This document shows, in pieces, positions 10,852 to 58,736 of a stretch of 64,000 nucleotides of DNA. The DNA is from an uncultured bacterium (lineage in GTDB: Bacteria; Cyanobacteriota; Vampirovibrionia; Gastranaerophilales; Gastranaerophilaceae), in the NCBI GenBank assembly GCA_902779645.1, contig CACZCH010000008.1, positions 1 to 64,000 of the forward strand. Direction: 5' to 3'. Under the pieces are notes generated by a model that was not told the DNA's origin, did not search any database, and saw only the letters and a program-made list of their open reading frames with translations. Numbering within the stretch: position 1 is the stretch's first letter; every line of letters begins with the position of its first letter. The position numbers and the translations under genes were made by a program.

Positions 10852-10893
10852 CACTCCCTCGCCCTGCGGGAGAGGGAAGGGGCGAGGGGGTAG
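10852..10893 (+). repeat. REP-like GC-rich palindrome
   Basis: CTCCCTCGCCCTGCGGGAG...GGGGCGAGGG. The CCCTCGCCC arm pairs with GGGGCGAGGG. It is nearly the same as 56557-56597. Confidence 0.75.
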
Positions 10894-10988: not shown

Positions 10989-11082
10989 CTGCCCCCTCAC
11001 CCCAACCCTCTCTTGACCTGCTCGCATTAAACGGGTATCGCTCTTGCTTGCACCCTCTGCTGGAGGGGGTACGCCATTGTTC
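10989..11082 (+). repeat. Left arm of a ~100-bp inverted repeat bracketing the kinase gene
   Basis: Starts CTGCCCCCTCACCCCAACCC and ends GTACGCCATTGTTC. The reverse complement of 13719-13835 is almost identical, apart from about 24 extra bases in that copy. The histidine kinase at 11612-13474 lies between the arms. Confidence 0.75.
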
Positions 11083-13718: not shown

Positions 13719-13835
13719 GAACAATGGCGTACCCCCTTCCCCTACGGGGTGAACGACCTGCGAGCAGAGGGTGCAAGCAAGAGCGATACCCGTTTAATGC
13801 GAGCAGGTCAAGAGAGGGTTGGGGTGAGGGGGCAG
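13719..13835 (-). repeat. Right arm of the inverted repeat bracketing the kinase gene
   Basis: Reverse complement of 10989-11082, with an extra insertion around GAACGACCTGCGAGCAG. The 13464-13838 reading frame across it is an artefact of the repeat. Confidence 0.75.
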
Positions 13836-26335: not shown

Positions 26336-29300
26336 TTATTTTTGATAATTATTTGCTGTTTCTTTTATATAATAAAACAAACTTGTCAAAATGTTAAATG
26401 TTTCATCAAATGTTAAGTAGTCATTATTAATTAGGATTATTGATTTTCCGTCAGTACAGCTTTTAGGTGCAGGGGTAAACTTGAGTTTTTTAAGCATTTC
26501 TTTATCCAATCCCTGTCGTATTATATTCCATTCATAAGGCGTAAACGGTGTATAAATACGTATATCCGAGCCGGCTTCACGAATTATAGAGACTCCGCAA
26601 TCAGTTGCTGTCAGACGAATTTTTATTAGCTTAATAAGATTTTCGACTTCTTCGGGAATTCTTGAAAATCTGTCTTTCCACTCAGATATTATATAATTAA
26701 GCTCTGTTTCGTTTTTAACATCGGATAAGCGTTTATACTCAATCATTTTTTGTTCGGTTGAACCTACCCACTCGTCGGGGATGTATGCAGTTACGTTGAT
26801 ATCAACAATCGCCGGTTTTTTAATATTTACACTTTCACCTTTTAATTCATTAACAGTTTCTTCCAAAAGTTCACAATAAGTATCGAATCCGACGTTAATC
26901 ATGTGTCCGTGCTGTTTTGTACCTAAAATGTTTCCGACTCCACGAATCTCAACATCGCGCATTGCAATTCTATATCCGCTTCCGAGTGTTGTAAATTCTT
27001 TTATTGCCTTAAGTCTTTCTTTTGCTTCATCTGTGAGCTCTTTATTCTTTTTATACAAACAATAACAGTATGCTTGCTTTTCACTTCTGCCGACACGTCC
27101 TCTAAGCTGATACATTTGGGCAAGTCCGAGTTTATCGGATTCATGAATAATAATGGTATTGGCGTTTGGTATATCTAAACCGTTTTCAATAATTGTTGTA
27201 CAAAGAAGAATGTCATATTCGTGGTTATCAAATCCGACAATAACATCTTCCAATTGTTTTTCGCTCAGCTGTCCGTGACCTACTGCTATTCTTGCGTTTG
27301 GAATGAGTTTTTGAAGTTCAAGTTTGAATTCTTCTATTGTTTCTACTCTGTTATAGAGGTAAAACACCTGTCCGTCGCGGTCAAGTTCGTTTGTAATAGC
27401 GTTTTTAACCGTTTGTTCATTATATTCACCTACATAAGTCTTAATTGGCAATCGGTTTTGAGGTGGAGTATTGATAACAGAAATATCTTTAATTCCTGAT
27501 AGCGACATATAAAGAGTTCTCGGAATAGGAGTGGCCGACATTGATATGATATCAATATTTTCTCTGAATTCTTTTAATTTTTCTTTGTGTCTTACTCCGA
27601 ATCGGTGTTCTTCATCTATTACAAGTAGTCCCAAATCCTTGAAAATAACTTTGTCCTGTAAAAGTGCGTGGGTTGCAATAACAACATCACATTTCCCCGT
27701 CGCCAGATTTTTGAGTGTTTCTTTTCTTTCTTTTGCAGAGCGAAAACGGCATAGAAGTTCAACATCGACTCCAAATGGTTTAAATCGGTCATTTATTGTT
27801 TGATAGTGCTGAAGCGCAAGAACTGTTGTAGGCACAATTACAGCGACCTGTTTTAATGAAGTTACAGCTTTGAACATTGCCCGCATGGCAACTTCCGTTT
27901 TCCCGAATCCGACATCTCCGCACACAAGTCTGTCCATGGGATTTATGTTTTCCATATCCTCTTTGATTTGATTAATAGCTTTAAGTTGGTCGGGAGTTTC
28001 AATATACTCAAACGTATCTTCCATCTCTAATTGTAACGGTGAATCAGGCGCAAAAGCTATTCCTTCCTGCATTTTTCTTCTTGCATATAACCTTAAAAGG
28101 TCATAAGCAATTGTTTCTACTGCTTTTTTTACTTTTTGTTTAACTCCTTCCCAGTCAGAACCGCCCATTCTTGAAAGCTTGGGCTTAACCTGTCCCGAAC
28201 CTCTGTAACGGCAAAGCATATTTATTTGCTCCGCAGGGATATGGAGTTTATCTTTATTTGCGTATTCAATTGTTAAATAATCTTTTAACTGCCCGTCAAG
28301 CTCTTGCTTTGTAAGTCCCTTATAAATCCCAACACCGTGGATAGAATGTACAACATATTCACCTTCCTGAATATCGTTAATATTTTCGATATATTCCGGT
28401 TTTTCTTTGTAATGACGCTTGCGGTTTGAAGGAACTTCTTTTTGGCGTTTATTAAACAGCTCTCTATCAGTAAGTAAAAGTATTTTAGCATCCGGAATAA
28501 TCGTTCCTTGCGATGTGATATTTTTAATATAATCAACATCAAATATCCCAAAAGATTCAAGAACTTCTTTTACTCTTTCATGAAAATCAGTAGCAATGGT
28601 AATTTGATACCCTTTATGCTCTTTTAAAAACCTTGAAACAGATTCCATATCAGCATCAAAGATTTGAATATTACGAGAGTCAATATCAATAACTTCGTTA
28701 TTTTCATCAGAGAGAAAGTTATTCAAAAAGATTTTTTGGAATCCTGCAATCTGCTGAATGAAATCTTCAAGAGAAAAATGGTTTGGAGCACAAGCTTTCC
28801 CACCCCTTGAGGGCGGGGGTTGGGGGGCGGGGTTTATAATTTGTTCTGTTTTTAATGCTTCATTATACTGATTATCAAATGTTTCTGATATCAGTCCGTA
28901 TTTGGAGGTAATTTCTGCGTATTCGTCAAAAACAACAATATAATCTTTCAAATAATCAAAAACACTCACTAAATCATTGTTAAAGAAGGATTGATATATG
29001 TTTATGCCTTCAAAATAACCTTCTGTATCTATCTGTTCTTTGAGTTTTATAGGTATCTTAGAAGGTAAAATTTCAGGTAATATAAATTTATAAAGAGGAT
29101 AAATGGTAATATTGTTTATTTTCTCTATGGATTTTTGAGTTTCATTATCAAAATATCTTATATCGACAATTTCATCTCCCCAAAATTCAATACGAACAGG
29201 GTTTTCTTCGAGCGTATAAATATCAGCTATATCACCGCGAATAGAAAATTCTCCTATATCTGTTACCATTGTAGAGCGCTTGTATCCAAGTTTTATAAGT

Positions 29301-29734
29301 CTTGAAAGAAGTTCTTTTTGGTCAATGCTGTCGCCTATTTTCAAAGAAAAAGAATTAATATCAAAAAACGAATCTCGCGGGAATTTTTCCAATAATACTT
29401 TAACCGGTGTGATAATGAGTTCAGGCTGATTAAGCAAAATGGATATTTGTTTTTGATAATCATAAAGATTGGAATTGATCCCTTCGTATGGCGAAATATT
29501 TTGATATGGAAGGGCGGCAGATTCCAAATCAAATAATCTCTCCAAATCAGAAGAATATCTTAAAGCAGATTGTTCAGTTGATGTGATAAAAAGAATTTTT
29601 TTGTTCGAAAGTTTGCGAATATATTTTAACAGCAAAAGACGTGAAAATGTTGTAAGTCCTGTAAATGTAAAACTTTTGCCTCTTTTAATATTACCTGCAA
29701 ATTTATCAAAAAAAACGCTTGTTTCTAATCTCAT
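26336..29734 (-). CDS. mfd: Transcription-repair coupling factor Mfd
   Basis: Translocase that strips stalled RNA polymerase and recruits UvrA. The 1132-aa protein has the UvrB-like N-terminal domains (FTGLTTFSRLLLL; LPYQNISPYEG), the RNAP-interacting CarD-like domain (EGEYVVHSIHGVGIYKG), Walker A CGDVGFGKTEVA, DEEHRFGV, SMSATPIPRTLYMS, QLRGRVGRSE and the C-terminal TRCF domain. Around residues 301-316 a Pro/Gly-rich stretch, NPAPQPPPSRGGKACAP, is encoded by a GC-rich REP-like palindrome sitting in frame. The promoter CTGACA-17-TATAAT ends 7 nt before the ATG with no ribosome site. The PPIase gene follows. Confidence 0.97.
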   Translation of the reverse strand: MRLETSVFFDKFAGNIKRGKSFTFTGLTTFSRLLLLKYIRKLSNKKILFITSTEQSALRYSSDLERLFDLESAALPYQNISPYEGINSNLYDYQKQISILLNQPELIITPVKVLLEKFPRDSFFDINSFSLKIGDSIDQKELLSRLIKLGYKRSTMVTDIGEFSIRGDIADIYTLEENPVRIEFWGDEIVDIRYFDNETQKSIEKINNITIYPLYKFILPEILPSKIPIKLKEQIDTEGYFEGINIYQSFFNNDLVSVFDYLKDYIVVFDEYAEITSKYGLISETFDNQYNEALKTEQIINPAPQPPPSRGGKACAPNHFSLEDFIQQIAGFQKIFLNNFLSDENNEVIDIDSRNIQIFDADMESVSRFLKEHKGYQITIATDFHERVKEVLESFGIFDVDYIKNITSQGTIIPDAKILLLTDRELFNKRQKEVPSNRKRHYKEKPEYIENINDIQEGEYVVHSIHGVGIYKGLTKQELDGQLKDYLTIEYANKDKLHIPAEQINMLCRYRGSGQVKPKLSRMGGSDWEGVKQKVKKAVETIAYDLLRLYARRKMQEGIAFAPDSPLQLEMEDTFEYIETPDQLKAINQIKEDMENINPMDRLVCGDVGFGKTEVAMRAMFKAVTSLKQVAVIVPTTVLALQHYQTINDRFKPFGVDVELLCRFRSAKERKETLKNLATGKCDVVIATHALLQDKVIFKDLGLLVIDEEHRFGVRHKEKLKEFRENIDIISMSATPIPRTLYMSLSGIKDISVINTPPQNRLPIKTYVGEYNEQTVKNAITNELDRDGQVFYLYNRVETIEEFKLELQKLIPNARIAVGHGQLSEKQLEDVIVGFDNHEYDILLCTTIIENGLDIPNANTIIIHESDKLGLAQMYQLRGRVGRSEKQAYCYCLYKKNKELTDEAKERLKAIKEFTTLGSGYRIAMRDVEIRGVGNILGTKQHGHMINVGFDTYCELLEETVNELKGESVNIKKPAIVDINVTAYIPDEWVGSTEQKMIEYKRLSDVKNETELNYIISEWKDRFSRIPEEVENLIKLIKIRLTATDCGVSIIREAGSDIRIYTPFTPYEWNIIRQGLDKEMLKKLKFTPAPKSCTDGKSIILINNDYLTFDETFNILTSLFYYIKETANNYQK
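28797..28834 (-). repeat. REP-like palindrome inserted in frame in mfd
   Basis: On the plus strand, TTCCCACCCCTTGAGGGCGG then GGGTTGGGGGGCGGGG. The GC content is abrupt against the AT-rich gene. It encodes NPAPQPPPSRGGK. Confidence 0.8.
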
Positions 29735-56029: not shown

Positions 56030-56254
56030 TTAATTTTTCCAATAAGTTTTAAACATTTTTATATCAAATAAAGTTTGTGTATAATCTCCTCCAAAACAAA
56101 CAGCCCTGTCATCGATATGTAAAAAAGAAGGTATTTTTATGTTTGTTACATCTTTGAAATATTTATCGAGATTATTTTCATCGTATTTTTCTTTGCCGTA
56201 CTCATTCAAAACACCGTCCAAATCAATTAATATTCGTTTTTTATATGTTTGCAT
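56030..56254 (-). CDS. HAD-like hydrolase, internally deleted
   Basis: Only 74 aa. It joins a HAD motif I (RILIDLDGVLNEYGKEKYDEN) directly to the family's C-terminal part (NLDKYFKDVTNIKIPSFLHIDDRAV...GDY). Full-length relatives I know of have roughly 40-50 residues between these, carrying motif II (Thr/Ser). The fusion is in frame, at AAT-AAT repeats. Motif I aspartates and the DD of motif IV survive. It is either a shrunken enzyme or a pseudogene in the making. GTAGGA lies before the ATG. It is divergent from the XRE gene, and both share the operator region 56255-56318. Confidence 0.65.
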   Translation of the reverse strand: MQTYKKRILIDLDGVLNEYGKEKYDENNLDKYFKDVTNIKIPSFLHIDDRAVCFGGDYTQTLFDIKMFKTYWKN

Positions 56255-56266
56255 AATTATCCTACC

Positions 56267-56312
56267 TACTGGAGTATTACCAGTAATAAAATGTTACTAT
56301 ATCCAGTAAAAT
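56267..56312. promoter_or_regulatory. Operator and promoter between the divergent HAD and XRE genes
   Basis: Palindrome 1: TACTGG-N7-CCAGTA (56267-56285). Palindrome 2: TACT-ATATCC-AGTA (56295-56308), which shares the CCAGTA half and overlaps the -10 TAAAAT (56307-56312) of the XRE gene. This is the classic layout of autorepression by an XRE protein. Confidence 0.6.
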
Positions 56313-56318
56313 TGTCAA

Positions 56319-56543
56319 ATGAATGAAAAAGCAATATATATTTCTATTGGTAAAAGAATAAAACAATTAAGGGAAGAACGGAATTTAACTCAAGAAAAAC
56401 TTGCTGAAAAAAGTGGTTTGAGTATTGATTATATTGGGAAAATTGAAGTAAATATAAATCAACCTGGATTAAAAGCATTAATAAAAATAGCAGATGCTTT
56501 AAAAGTGCAATTAAAAGAAATTTTTGATTTTGAGAATTTATAA
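56319..56543 (+). CDS. XRE-family HTH transcriptional regulator
   Basis: A 74-aa single-domain repressor: IGKRIKQLREERNLTQEKLA, then EKSGLSIDYIGKIE and INQPGLKALIKIADAL, matching the Cro/C1-type HTH over its whole length. It probably binds the TACTGG/CCAGTA palindromes in its own promoter. TAAAAT ends 6 nt before the ATG and there is no ribosome site, so the mRNA is predicted leaderless. Controller proteins of this size occur with restriction or toxin modules. Here the neighbours are a deleted HAD protein and a DUF559 nuclease. Confidence 0.9.
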   Translation: MNEKAIYISIGKRIKQLREERNLTQEKLAEKSGLSIDYIGKIEVNINQPGLKALIKIADALKVQLKEIFDFENL

Positions 56544-56556
56544 AACAAATCTCATG

Positions 56557-56597
56557 CACTCCCTCGCCCTGCGGGAGAGGGAAGGGGTGAGGGGGCA
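56557..56597 (+). repeat. REP-like palindrome, left flank of the DUF559 gene
   Basis: CACTCCCTCGCCCTGCGGG then AGAGGGAAGGGGTGAGGGGG. Its GAGGGGG (56589-56595) also serves as the ribosome site of the DUF559 gene, 8 nt before the ATG. Confidence 0.85.
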
Positions 56598-56603
56598 ATT
56601 TAC

Positions 56604-56942
56604 ATGCAAAAGAATACAGATATAGCTCGAAAATTACGCAAAAATGCAACAAAGCAAGAACATGTATTATGGAATTTACTTAGAAATTCAAAGTTAAATA
56701 ATCATAAGTTCAAAAGACAATATCCAATAGGGAATTACATTGTTGATTTTGTTTGTATTGAAAAATTTTTAATTATAGAACTTGATGGCGGTCAACATAA
56801 CTATATTGAAAATAAAATTGCGGATGAAGAAAGAACAAATTATTTGCAAAGCAGAGGATATAAAGTTATTAGATTTTGGAATAACGACATTGATAAAAAT
56901 GTTGAAGGTGTGTATGAAGAGATTATGAAGAATCTTGGTTAA
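56604..56942 (+). CDS. DUF559 endonuclease-domain protein (Vsr-like fold)
   Basis: 112 aa, full DUF559 length. ARKLRKNATKQEHVLWNLLR leads into NHKFKRQYPIGNYIVDFVC (the conserved FRRQxPIGxYIVDF) and the catalytic-type LIIELDGGQHNY with a final RFWNNDI. The family belongs to the PD-(D/E)XK/Vsr superfamily of nucleases; its biological role is not settled. The gene is bracketed by inverted REP-like palindromes (56557-56597 and 56956-56996), and the left one provides its Shine-Dalgarno. Similar palindromes without a nuclease gene occur elsewhere in the window. This suggests that the nuclease travels with, or acts on, the repeats. Confidence 0.9.
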   Translation: MQKNTDIARKLRKNATKQEHVLWNLLRNSKLNNHKFKRQYPIGNYIVDFVCIEKFLIIELDGGQHNYIENKIADEERTNYLQSRGYKVIRFWNNDIDKNVEGVYEEIMKNLG

Positions 56943-56955
56943 TTTATTGAATTTG

Positions 56956-56996
56956 CCCCCTCACCCTAGCCCTCTCCCGCAGGGAGAGGGAATGCA
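56956..56996 (-). repeat. REP-like palindrome, right flank of the DUF559 gene
   Basis: GCCCCCTCACCCTAGCCC then TCTCCCGCAGGGAGAGGGAA: the inverted counterpart of 56557-56597. Confidence 0.85.
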
Positions 56997-57042: not shown

Positions 57043-57082
57043 CCCCCCCCCTGTTGACATGGGCATGTTTTGATTTTAGAAT
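57043..57082 (+). promoter_or_regulatory. Consensus sigma-70 promoter preceded by a C9 tract
   Basis: TTGACA (57054-57059), 17-bp spacer, TAGAAT (57077-57082). Nine C's at 57043-57051 end two bases before the -35 and could slip in length. Confidence 0.75.
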
Positions 57083-57148
57083 TAAGTACAAGGGTTGGGG
57101 ATTGGTTAGTAGTTTATAAATATCAGCCTAAAATTTTGGGATAGTTTA

Positions 57149-57421
57149 ATGGTTAATCATCTGGAAGAAAGATTAGAAGATATTACAAAACAGATTGATG
57201 AAGTAGAATTTAATCTGAGAGTATGTTCGCGCCATACTCAGTTTATGCATGAGATGAAAAAAGTTACTGCCTCCGATAAAGATCTTTTTATGGACTATGA
57301 CAGGCAAATGGGACAGGATGCCTATAAGCGAATGATGATGCAGGAAAAGCTCAAAAAGCTTATGGAAGAAAGTTTCGAATTGCAGGAAAAGATTTTGAAC
57401 GGAGAAGGTGAGGATGACTAA
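57149..57421 (+). CDS. Coiled-coil protein of 90 aa upstream of nhaC
   Basis: A highly charged all-helical protein with heptad-like spacing (LEERLEDITKQIDEVEFNL; MMMQEKLKKLMEESFELQEK). No signal peptide or TM helix. GGGATAG precedes the ATG, about 60 nt after a consensus promoter. Its stop overlaps the nhaC start region (GAGGATGACTAA), so both are translated from one mRNA. The family is not recognised. Because of coupling it could be a cytoplasmic partner of the antiporter. Confidence 0.78.
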   Translation: MVNHLEERLEDITKQIDEVEFNLRVCSRHTQFMHEMKKVTASDKDLFMDYDRQMGQDAYKRMMMQEKLKKLMEESFELQEKILNGEGEDD

Positions 57422-58736
57422 TCAAGAACATGTACAATGGCGGGAATCAAGTTTTAAGGCGATAATACCTTTTATTGTTTTCGTTCTTTTTTATTTTGGG
57501 TTTTCACTTTGGACAAGGGATTTTTCTAAAGTTCCTATGACTGTTGCGTTTATAATATCTTCCGCAACAGCTTTAATACTTAATCACAAAGAAAAATTGA
57601 GTAAAAAAATAGAACTTTTTGCTCTTGGCATGGGGAACAAAGACATAATGATTATGTGTTTGATTTTCATACTTGCCGGAGCTTTTACTGCAACAGCTAA
57701 GGCAGTTGGCGGAGTAGATTCGGCTGTAATGATTGCACAGCATTTTATTCCTTCACAATTTATGGTTTTGGGGTTGTTTATAATCTCCGCTTTAATATCT
57801 CTTTCTATTGGTACTTCTTGCGGTACGATTGCCGCTATTGTGCCGATTGCGGTAACGATTTCTCAATCACTCGGTTTTAATCCTGCTATTCTTTTAGGCG
57901 CAACGGTTGGTGGTGCGATGTTTGGAGACAATATGTCTCTAATATCTGATACGAAGATTGCGGCAAGCAGAACCCAAAATGTTGAAATGCGTGATGAGAT
58001 GTTTTATAACCTCAAGATTATAACAATTCCTGCAATTCTATGTATTACATTATATTCACTTCCTATATTCACAGCATCAGCAGGTGTGAATATTGAGCAG
58101 ACTGTTTTAAATCTTGACAGTTATATAAAAGTAGCTCCGTATATTCTGCTTTTGATACTTGGTATATCAGGTGTTAACGTAATGTTTCTTTTATTATTCG
58201 GGACAATCTTGAACACGATAATTGGGATATCATACGGAATGTTTGATATTTTTACGGCATTTGCTTATATTGGTGACGGTACAACAAGCATGGCAAACAC
58301 TATAATAGTTGCAATGCTTGCAGGCGGTCTGCTTCTGCTTGTACGATATAATGGCGGTATAACTTATATCATAAGAGCGACTGAAAAATGGATTAAGAAC
58401 CAAAAAACATGTGAGATTGGGATTTGTTTTTTGGTTGGTGTAATAAACTTATTTACTGCAAATAATACTGTTGCAATTATTACTTCGGGCTCAATTGTAA
58501 AAGAACTTGCAGGAAAATATAATGTCAAGGCTGAACGAGCTGCGAGCTTGATGGATACAACTTCCTGCTGTGTTCAGGGTATGATACCGTATGGCGCACA
58601 AATCCTTATTGCAGCTGCTTTATCTGTTTCAATCGGTATGACTTCATTTGGGATTCTGAAAGGCTTATTTTATCCTGCATTAATGCTGCTGGGATTGATT
58701 ATTTCTATTTCAAGAGTTAAAGAAAAAACAAAATAA
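57414..58736 (+). CDS. nhaC: Na+/H+ antiporter, NhaC family
   Basis: A 440-aa integral membrane protein with 10-12 predicted TM helices exchanging sodium (or organic acids) for protons. Family motifs: IIPFIVFVLFYFGFS, SIGTSCGTIAAIVPIAV, VGGAMFGDNMSLISDTKIA (ion-binding Asp residues) and FTANNTVAIITSGSIVKE. ATG 57414 is preferred, with GGAG 9 nt upstream; GTG 57408 is possible. It overlaps the coiled-coil gene by 8 nt. The upstream promoter is consensus, with a variable-length C tract beside it. Confidence 0.9.
   Translation: MTNQEHVQWRESSFKAIIPFIVFVLFYFGFSLWTRDFSKVPMTVAFIISSATALILNHKEKLSKKIELFALGMGNKDIMIMCLIFILAGAFTATAKAVGGVDSAVMIAQHFIPSQFMVLGLFIISALISLSIGTSCGTIAAIVPIAVTISQSLGFNPAILLGATVGGAMFGDNMSLISDTKIAASRTQNVEMRDEMFYNLKIITIPAILCITLYSLPIFTASAGVNIEQTVLNLDSYIKVAPYILLLILGISGVNVMFLLLFGTILNTIIGISYGMFDIFTAFAYIGDGTTSMANTIIVAMLAGGLLLLVRYNGGITYIIRATEKWIKNQKTCEIGICFLVGVINLFTANNTVAIITSGSIVKELAGKYNVKAERAASLMDTTSCCVQGMIPYGAQILIAAALSVSIGMTSFGILKGLFYPALMLLGLIISISRVKEKTK

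Follow-up and report, generated by a model that had tools for sequence, protein, structure and literature searches.

The locus treated here raises the question of whether a short nuclease gene and the two palindromes enclosing it are a resident gene with its flanking signals or a mobile unit, and how such a unit would relate to the copies of the palindrome scattered elsewhere in the genome. In the stretch of 64,000 nucleotides that was analysed (the window), the first-pass annotation had described inverted copies of one palindrome on either side of a DUF559 nuclease gene, and both parts of that description are borne out. The left repeat (56561-56595, forward strand) reads CCCTCGCCC TGC GGGAGAGGG AAG GGGTGAGGG GG, that is, a hairpin (CCCTCGCCC-TGC-GGGAGAGGG) followed by a third block, GGGTGAGGG, which faces the gene; the right repeat (56956-56990, reverse strand) is its inverted counterpart, the reverse complement being CCCTCTCCC TGC GGGAGAGGG CTA GGGTGAGGG GG, with the loop TGC common to both. 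Each repeat is 35 bp long, the whole unit 430 bp (56561-56990, forward strand), and chance occurrence of either repeat half in the window was zero in 100 dinucleotide shuffles. The gene between them (56604-56942, forward strand) encodes a protein of 112 aa which matches PF04480 with E=1.4e-40; besides DUF559, profile searches gave MTES_1575, below the cut-off. PADLOC found a weak DpdF match and nothing else in the window, an Rfam scan of the unit gave no RNA family above chance-level matches, and no known transposase family is encoded in the unit, which holds DUF559 alone.

Both palindromes fit exactly the published consensus CCCTCNCCC N3-6 GGGNGAGGG N3 GGGNGAGGG of the “intrastrand triplex motif” (TM), in which a pyrimidine block is followed by the complementary block and then by a third one, of purines (PMC4666352); the assignment is a match to this consensus, and beyond sequence, hairpin energies were computed. 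TMs, or PIT repeats, were described by Holder et al. (2015) in more than 260 genomes, with 23 copies in E. coli MG1655, and were tied to genome instability; mobility functions were never found near them, according to their authors (PMC4666352). Enterobacter sp. 638 contains 100 palindromes of the TM kind (PMC2869309). Like the published TMs, the repeats seen here are dispersed in many phyla, but whereas the published E. coli copies are always intergenic and without a nearby mobility gene (PMC4666352), here they bound a nuclease cassette as its inverted termini and are also met in frame within genes. How repeats which destabilise their surroundings spread through more than 260 genomes, E. coli K-12 included, had been unexplained; the nuclease linked to them may be the missing driver of the family, which makes TM spread testable in a laboratory strain.

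The palindromes might instead be fixed regulatory flanks (terminators, insulators or a ribosome site) of a resident gene, and in the window the left TM could provide a Shine-Dalgarno sequence: its third block contains GAGG (56589-56592, forward strand), 11 nt before the nuclease ATG. That this palindrome serves as the ribosome site, as first proposed, is plausible for the window gene but does not hold in general. In 18 of 27 related intergenic units (L027, L028, L031-L033, L035, L036, L041, L043, L044, L056-L058, L060-L063 and L066) an extended -10 box (TGnTAnnAT) ends 6-7 nt before the nuclease ATG, against 2% expected from shuffles, a spacing which would give leaderless mRNA; their sequences thus suggest that these units make leaderless transcripts, while the window unit has no such box. 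As an account of the palindromes, regulatory flanks seem extremely improbable, since no terminator-like site is predicted, TMs have no reported promoter or terminator activity (PMC4666352), units also lie in frame within coding sequence, and their positions are polymorphic.

A survey of DUF559 genes for flanking palindromes, suggested by the first-pass annotation, revealed a strong association that extends across phyla. It covered 80 DUF559 loci, taken from named genomes in many phyla, and for 79 of them about 40-110 control positions per locus served as the yardstick; in 65 cases the two flanks pair as an inverted repeat that outscores all controls of the same locus, and in the other 14 no flanking repeat exceeded the controls. 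By the strict TM pattern, a TM is present on at least one side in 42/80 loci and on both sides in 27/80, and the third blocks are both turned towards the gene in 20 of these 27. The two repeats of a unit are alike, often down to the loop bases: the mean score within units is 49.9 in the genus of the window and 45.5 in the named loci, as opposed to 22.9 and 22.3 between units (permutation maxima 30.8 and 25.6, respectively). Among 34 congeneric genomes, TM count follows DUF559 count (Spearman 0.63, p=6e-5, kinship being ignored; medians 23 vs 3), except in G025 and G026, two nearly complete, TM-rich genomes without a detected DUF559 gene. Variants of the palindrome were also met: in five loci (L026, L150, L189, L196 and L211) the loop that precedes the third TM block has a second hairpin within it, the block itself (GGGTGAGGG or GGGTGGGG) being kept, and on a Pseudanabaena plasmid (L287) a cyanobacterial DUF559 gene stands between inverted GCCCCCCTAGCCCCCCAATTCTGGGGGG repeats, a lineage-specific form. 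As DUF559 is rare in phage records (3 of 50,697) and plasmid records (45 of 72,556, several of which are whole chromosomes), carriage by phages or plasmids is not the main route of its spread.

The further palindromes reported from the window are present as well. An intact solitary TM lies at 10856-10890 (forward strand), two variants, at 10989-11082 (reverse strand) and 13719-13835 (forward strand), are TM tails whose hairpin is split by an inserted stretch, and a solitary variant at 28799-28833 (forward strand) sits in frame inside mfd (26336-29734, reverse strand), where it encodes NPAPQPPPSRGG. The stretch interrupting the hairpin of the two tails is bounded by GACCTGC/GCAGGTC, and both share a longer flanking similarity; they are possibly a compound repeat. 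The whole genome (2.06 Mb in 40 contigs), nearest among named organisms to Candidatus Gastranaerophilales, contains about 27 hairpin copies and none of the reversed pattern; wherever a third block is recognisable, the hairpin comes first and the GGGTGAGGG tail second. A second DUF559 gene of this genome is also enclosed by inverted palindromes, of a sequence unlike that in the window, and lies in frame inside prmA within an open frame of 469 aa. At a further locus (L010; G000 C11:20835-21269), two inverted TMs spaced 414 bp apart lie in frame in a glycerophosphotransferase-like ORF but enclose no DUF559.

An inverted pair of short palindromes around a nuclease gene, with solitary copies elsewhere, recalls REPs and their RAYT transposases, and the first-pass annotation had drawn this analogy. 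Its core stands in that the nuclease is tied to the palindromes and appears to move with them, neither a lack of association nor fixed positions being found; the comparison with RAYTs itself is not supported. The protein is of the PD-(D/E)XK-type DUF559 family and not an HUH (Y1) transposase, and the repeat differs, too. That the palindromes are REPs moved by RAYTs encoded elsewhere in the genome, DUF559 being incidental, is very improbable: Y1_Tnp genes do occur in 33/58 congeneric genomes, with four matches in that of the window, but a TM lies within 600 bp of just one of 20 RAYT-like genes of the genus, whereas TMs enclose DUF559. RAYTs were rejected as mobilisers on this count.

Comparison of sites delimits the unit and shows that it is mobile. 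In four species (L039, L043, L061 and L063), in which units occupy different sites, the shared sequence reaches exactly to the outer edge of each hairpin and stops there. The window unit is missing from the corresponding syntenic position of G023 (L222): positions 56174-56548 and 57054-58711 of the window align there at 81%, with 254 unrelated bp in between, the alignment covering the upstream regulator gene (56319-56543) and the downstream genes; at the other syntenic loci tested no counterpart of the window unit aligns. All three states were found at the intergenic L063 site, where TMs and gene are both missing from G077, G058 has the TMs only (in flanks 94-98% identical), and G019 has the TMs with the unit. 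Polymorphism between occupied and empty sites, which the first-pass annotation had proposed to look for, is thus seen for the window unit, at L063, and within PrmA, HydF and MurD. Two related DUF559 units of G023 (L028 and L053; 92% protein identity) occupy different sites and carry an extra outer palindrome, GGAAGTGA..TCACTTCC.

Units also reside within host genes. Nine of the first unit copies found sit in large open frames. In-frame copies occur in PrmA, HydF, MurD, IspE and Mfd; family models confirmed Mfd, IspE, HydF, AhbD and HydE, and further candidates are possibly HsdS- and MpaA-like genes. The phenomenon extends beyond the genus of the window to other phyla, as in Mfd of a Rickettsiales genome (L207), where a full in-frame TM-DUF559-TM unit lies in roughly the same region as the solo TM of the window mfd. 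Near the nuclease core, 27 of 28 intergenic copies start with ATG and one with GTG, while no ATG lies within 50 codons in eight of nine in-frame copies. No Hint model of inteins was detected in the in-frame proteins (seven scanned with Pfam, nine with NCBIfam), which contain host and nuclease domains only. Orthologues of these hosts are empty or bear short in-frame hairpin scars. In PrmA, the nuclease occupies one codon position in five species, most of the 30 being empty, with one hairpin scar (VYPLLEG; L097) and one truncated frame; HydF shows six full in-frame copies, a solo TM (L104), a TM pair without the gene (L105), several peptide scars and empty alleles, every variant in the same loop. 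Most of the genomes in evidence are metagenome-assembled; for those in-frame alleles that several assemblies show independently at a single site, an artefact of assembly is nevertheless unlikely. In the nuclease tree, from which a filter removed L026, the in-frame copies of the genus cluster (13 with support 97/95) and those of HydF are monophyletic, whereas the PrmA site is occupied by at least two separate lineages. As dN/dS is mostly 0.05-0.2, for intergenic and in-frame nucleases alike, purifying selection has kept the nuclease functional.

Transfer between species is suggested by MurD, in which G028 and G058 carry the nuclease. Their nuclease genes are identical at 308 of 309 positions (99.7%), the surrounding host gene at 93.1% and 93.4% on either side (Fisher p=1e-7), an island of identity for which recent transfer or gene conversion is hard to avoid as an explanation. 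The empty MurD allele of G019 carries an in-frame deletion ending at CCGGAG; it looks like deletion at this microhomology and hence shows loss, not gain. These observations bear on the idea that TMs are unstable DNA which recombines and duplicates alone, with DUF559 as an ordinary Vsr-like repair gene caught as a passenger between two copies. Such a role would agree with the hypervariability of TM loci in E. coli (PMC4666352) and with the proposal that VsrA, a DUF559 protein of Caulobacter, is a mismatch-repair nuclease (PMC12907096). It would leave unaccounted for that TMs in many phyla surround members of a single gene family, that left and right repeats are matched within units, that in-frame copies in unrelated host genes are under purifying selection, and that a 99.7% identical nuclease island lies within a 93% identical host gene, and we regard it as distinctly improbable.

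The protein itself indicates what the unit may do. Five columns of DUF559 are invariant (E19, D48, E59, D61 and H65), which would fit a Vsr-like active site. A structure model built from 65 homologues (pLDDT 89) has its best match in 3hrl, a solved DUF559 protein (Z 15.7), followed by the catalytic domain of the homing endonuclease I-Bth0305I (3r3p; Z 12.1, 91 residues, rmsd 2.5) and Vsr (Z 10.3); with Z 7.2 it resembles TnsA as well, a subunit of PD-(D/E)XK type in the Tn7 transposase. By this model, the nuclease has the Vsr/EDxHD homing-endonuclease fold (for the family see PMC3943268) and not that of HUH transposases. Caulobacter VsrA damages DNA in vivo; it has been read as a methyltransferase-linked enzyme of mismatch repair, with no link to repeats described (PMC12907096), whereas the nuclease treated here is tied to repeats.

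The resemblance to TnsA is among the reasons to consider that DUF559 is a true transposase acting on TM ends, which would cut out or nick the unit at the hairpins and join it to new sites, solitary TMs being mobilised in trans like MITEs. Units stop exactly at inverted hairpins in non-homologous sites of different species, several copies occur per genome, and TM copy number tracks that of DUF559, all as would be expected of such an enzyme. Target-site duplications, however, follow no consistent pattern around the units (ATGCA is present on both sides of the window unit, GCCGGAG around that in MurD), the unit has no partner gene for joining and no ATPase gene, and a codon position occupied repeatedly across species is more typical of homing; a transposase is therefore unlikely, if less so than the alternatives weighed above.

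It appears probable, instead, that TM-DUF559-TM is a selfish mobile cassette which works like a homing endonuclease gene, solitary TMs being its remnants or non-autonomous copies. The pattern is that of homing because full, partial and empty alleles exist at one site, near-identical nucleases reside in diverged hosts, the fold is that of homing endonucleases, and losses leave scars. DUF559, which would itself drive the movement, may nick or cut DNA where a site is receptive, probably at solitary TM hairpins or at certain positions in genes; in repairing the break, the host would copy in the cassette, with the TM arms as homologous ends. The arrival of units at new sites requires ectopic repair at solitary TMs or else a reaction like that of a transposase, and the former is favoured. 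Later, in-frame deletion would reduce cassettes to alleles with TMs only or with a peptide scar, which, together with dispersed solitary TMs presumably descended from units, would make up the genome-wide repeat family. One sub-lineage, which would have lost its promoter and start codon, resides in frame within host proteins, its TMs translated as linkers rich in proline and glycine (PPLEGG..., ...NPLPQGEG).

The homing-like cassette shares single traits with several known systems. Patchy occupation of one host-gene site, as in PrmA, HydF and MurD, and the catalytic fold are common to it and the EDxHD homing endonucleases; in contrast to these and Vsr, its protein of about 112 aa has no extra DNA-binding region, is not placed in an intron or intein, is flanked by TMs and is read in frame without splicing. 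Terminal inverted repeats are found in classical insertion sequences and MITEs, too. Rickettsia palindromic elements (RPEs), as described, are palindromes inserted in frame within protein genes, as TM units are, but they encode no nuclease, whereas the two palindromes of the present unit move with a complete nuclease domain between them. The parts are thus known already (TM, DUF559, homing nucleases and in-frame palindromes); searches of open-licence papers for DUF559 with inverted repeats, for PLPQGEG peptides, or for a triplex with an endonuclease gene retrieved no earlier description of the combined element. It is classed as a new, homing-like kind of mobile element because a defining feature of each of RAYT/REP systems, inteins and known insertion sequences is absent. 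On balance, and a little more guardedly than for the homing-like mode of action, TM-DUF559-TM is likely an unrecognised class of mobile elements in many phyla and the autonomous source of TM/PIT repeats, including a lineage that stays unspliced in host proteins, even the normally essential MurD and IspE, with its palindromic ends as flexible linkers. If so, a large family of “unknown function” would gain one, and a selfish nuclease could occupy essential genes without splicing, its ends being read through as linkers.

In E. coli, 23 TMs stand beside one DUF559 gene, ycjD, and TM no. 9 sits between fabI and this gene. An intact TM is present on one side of ycjD alone, with an AT-rich palindrome on the 5′ side instead, which weighs against the homing-like reading. 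As a strain-level empty site the locus was discarded: in the two ycjD-negative strains examined an efflux/TetR block replaces the region, and thus neither a clean empty site nor an excision can be read from it. The gene is polymorphic in the species (L215, L216 and L217; fabI-sapF), a fabI-ycjD query being covered to at least 80% in 3,362 of 5,426 E. coli genomes.
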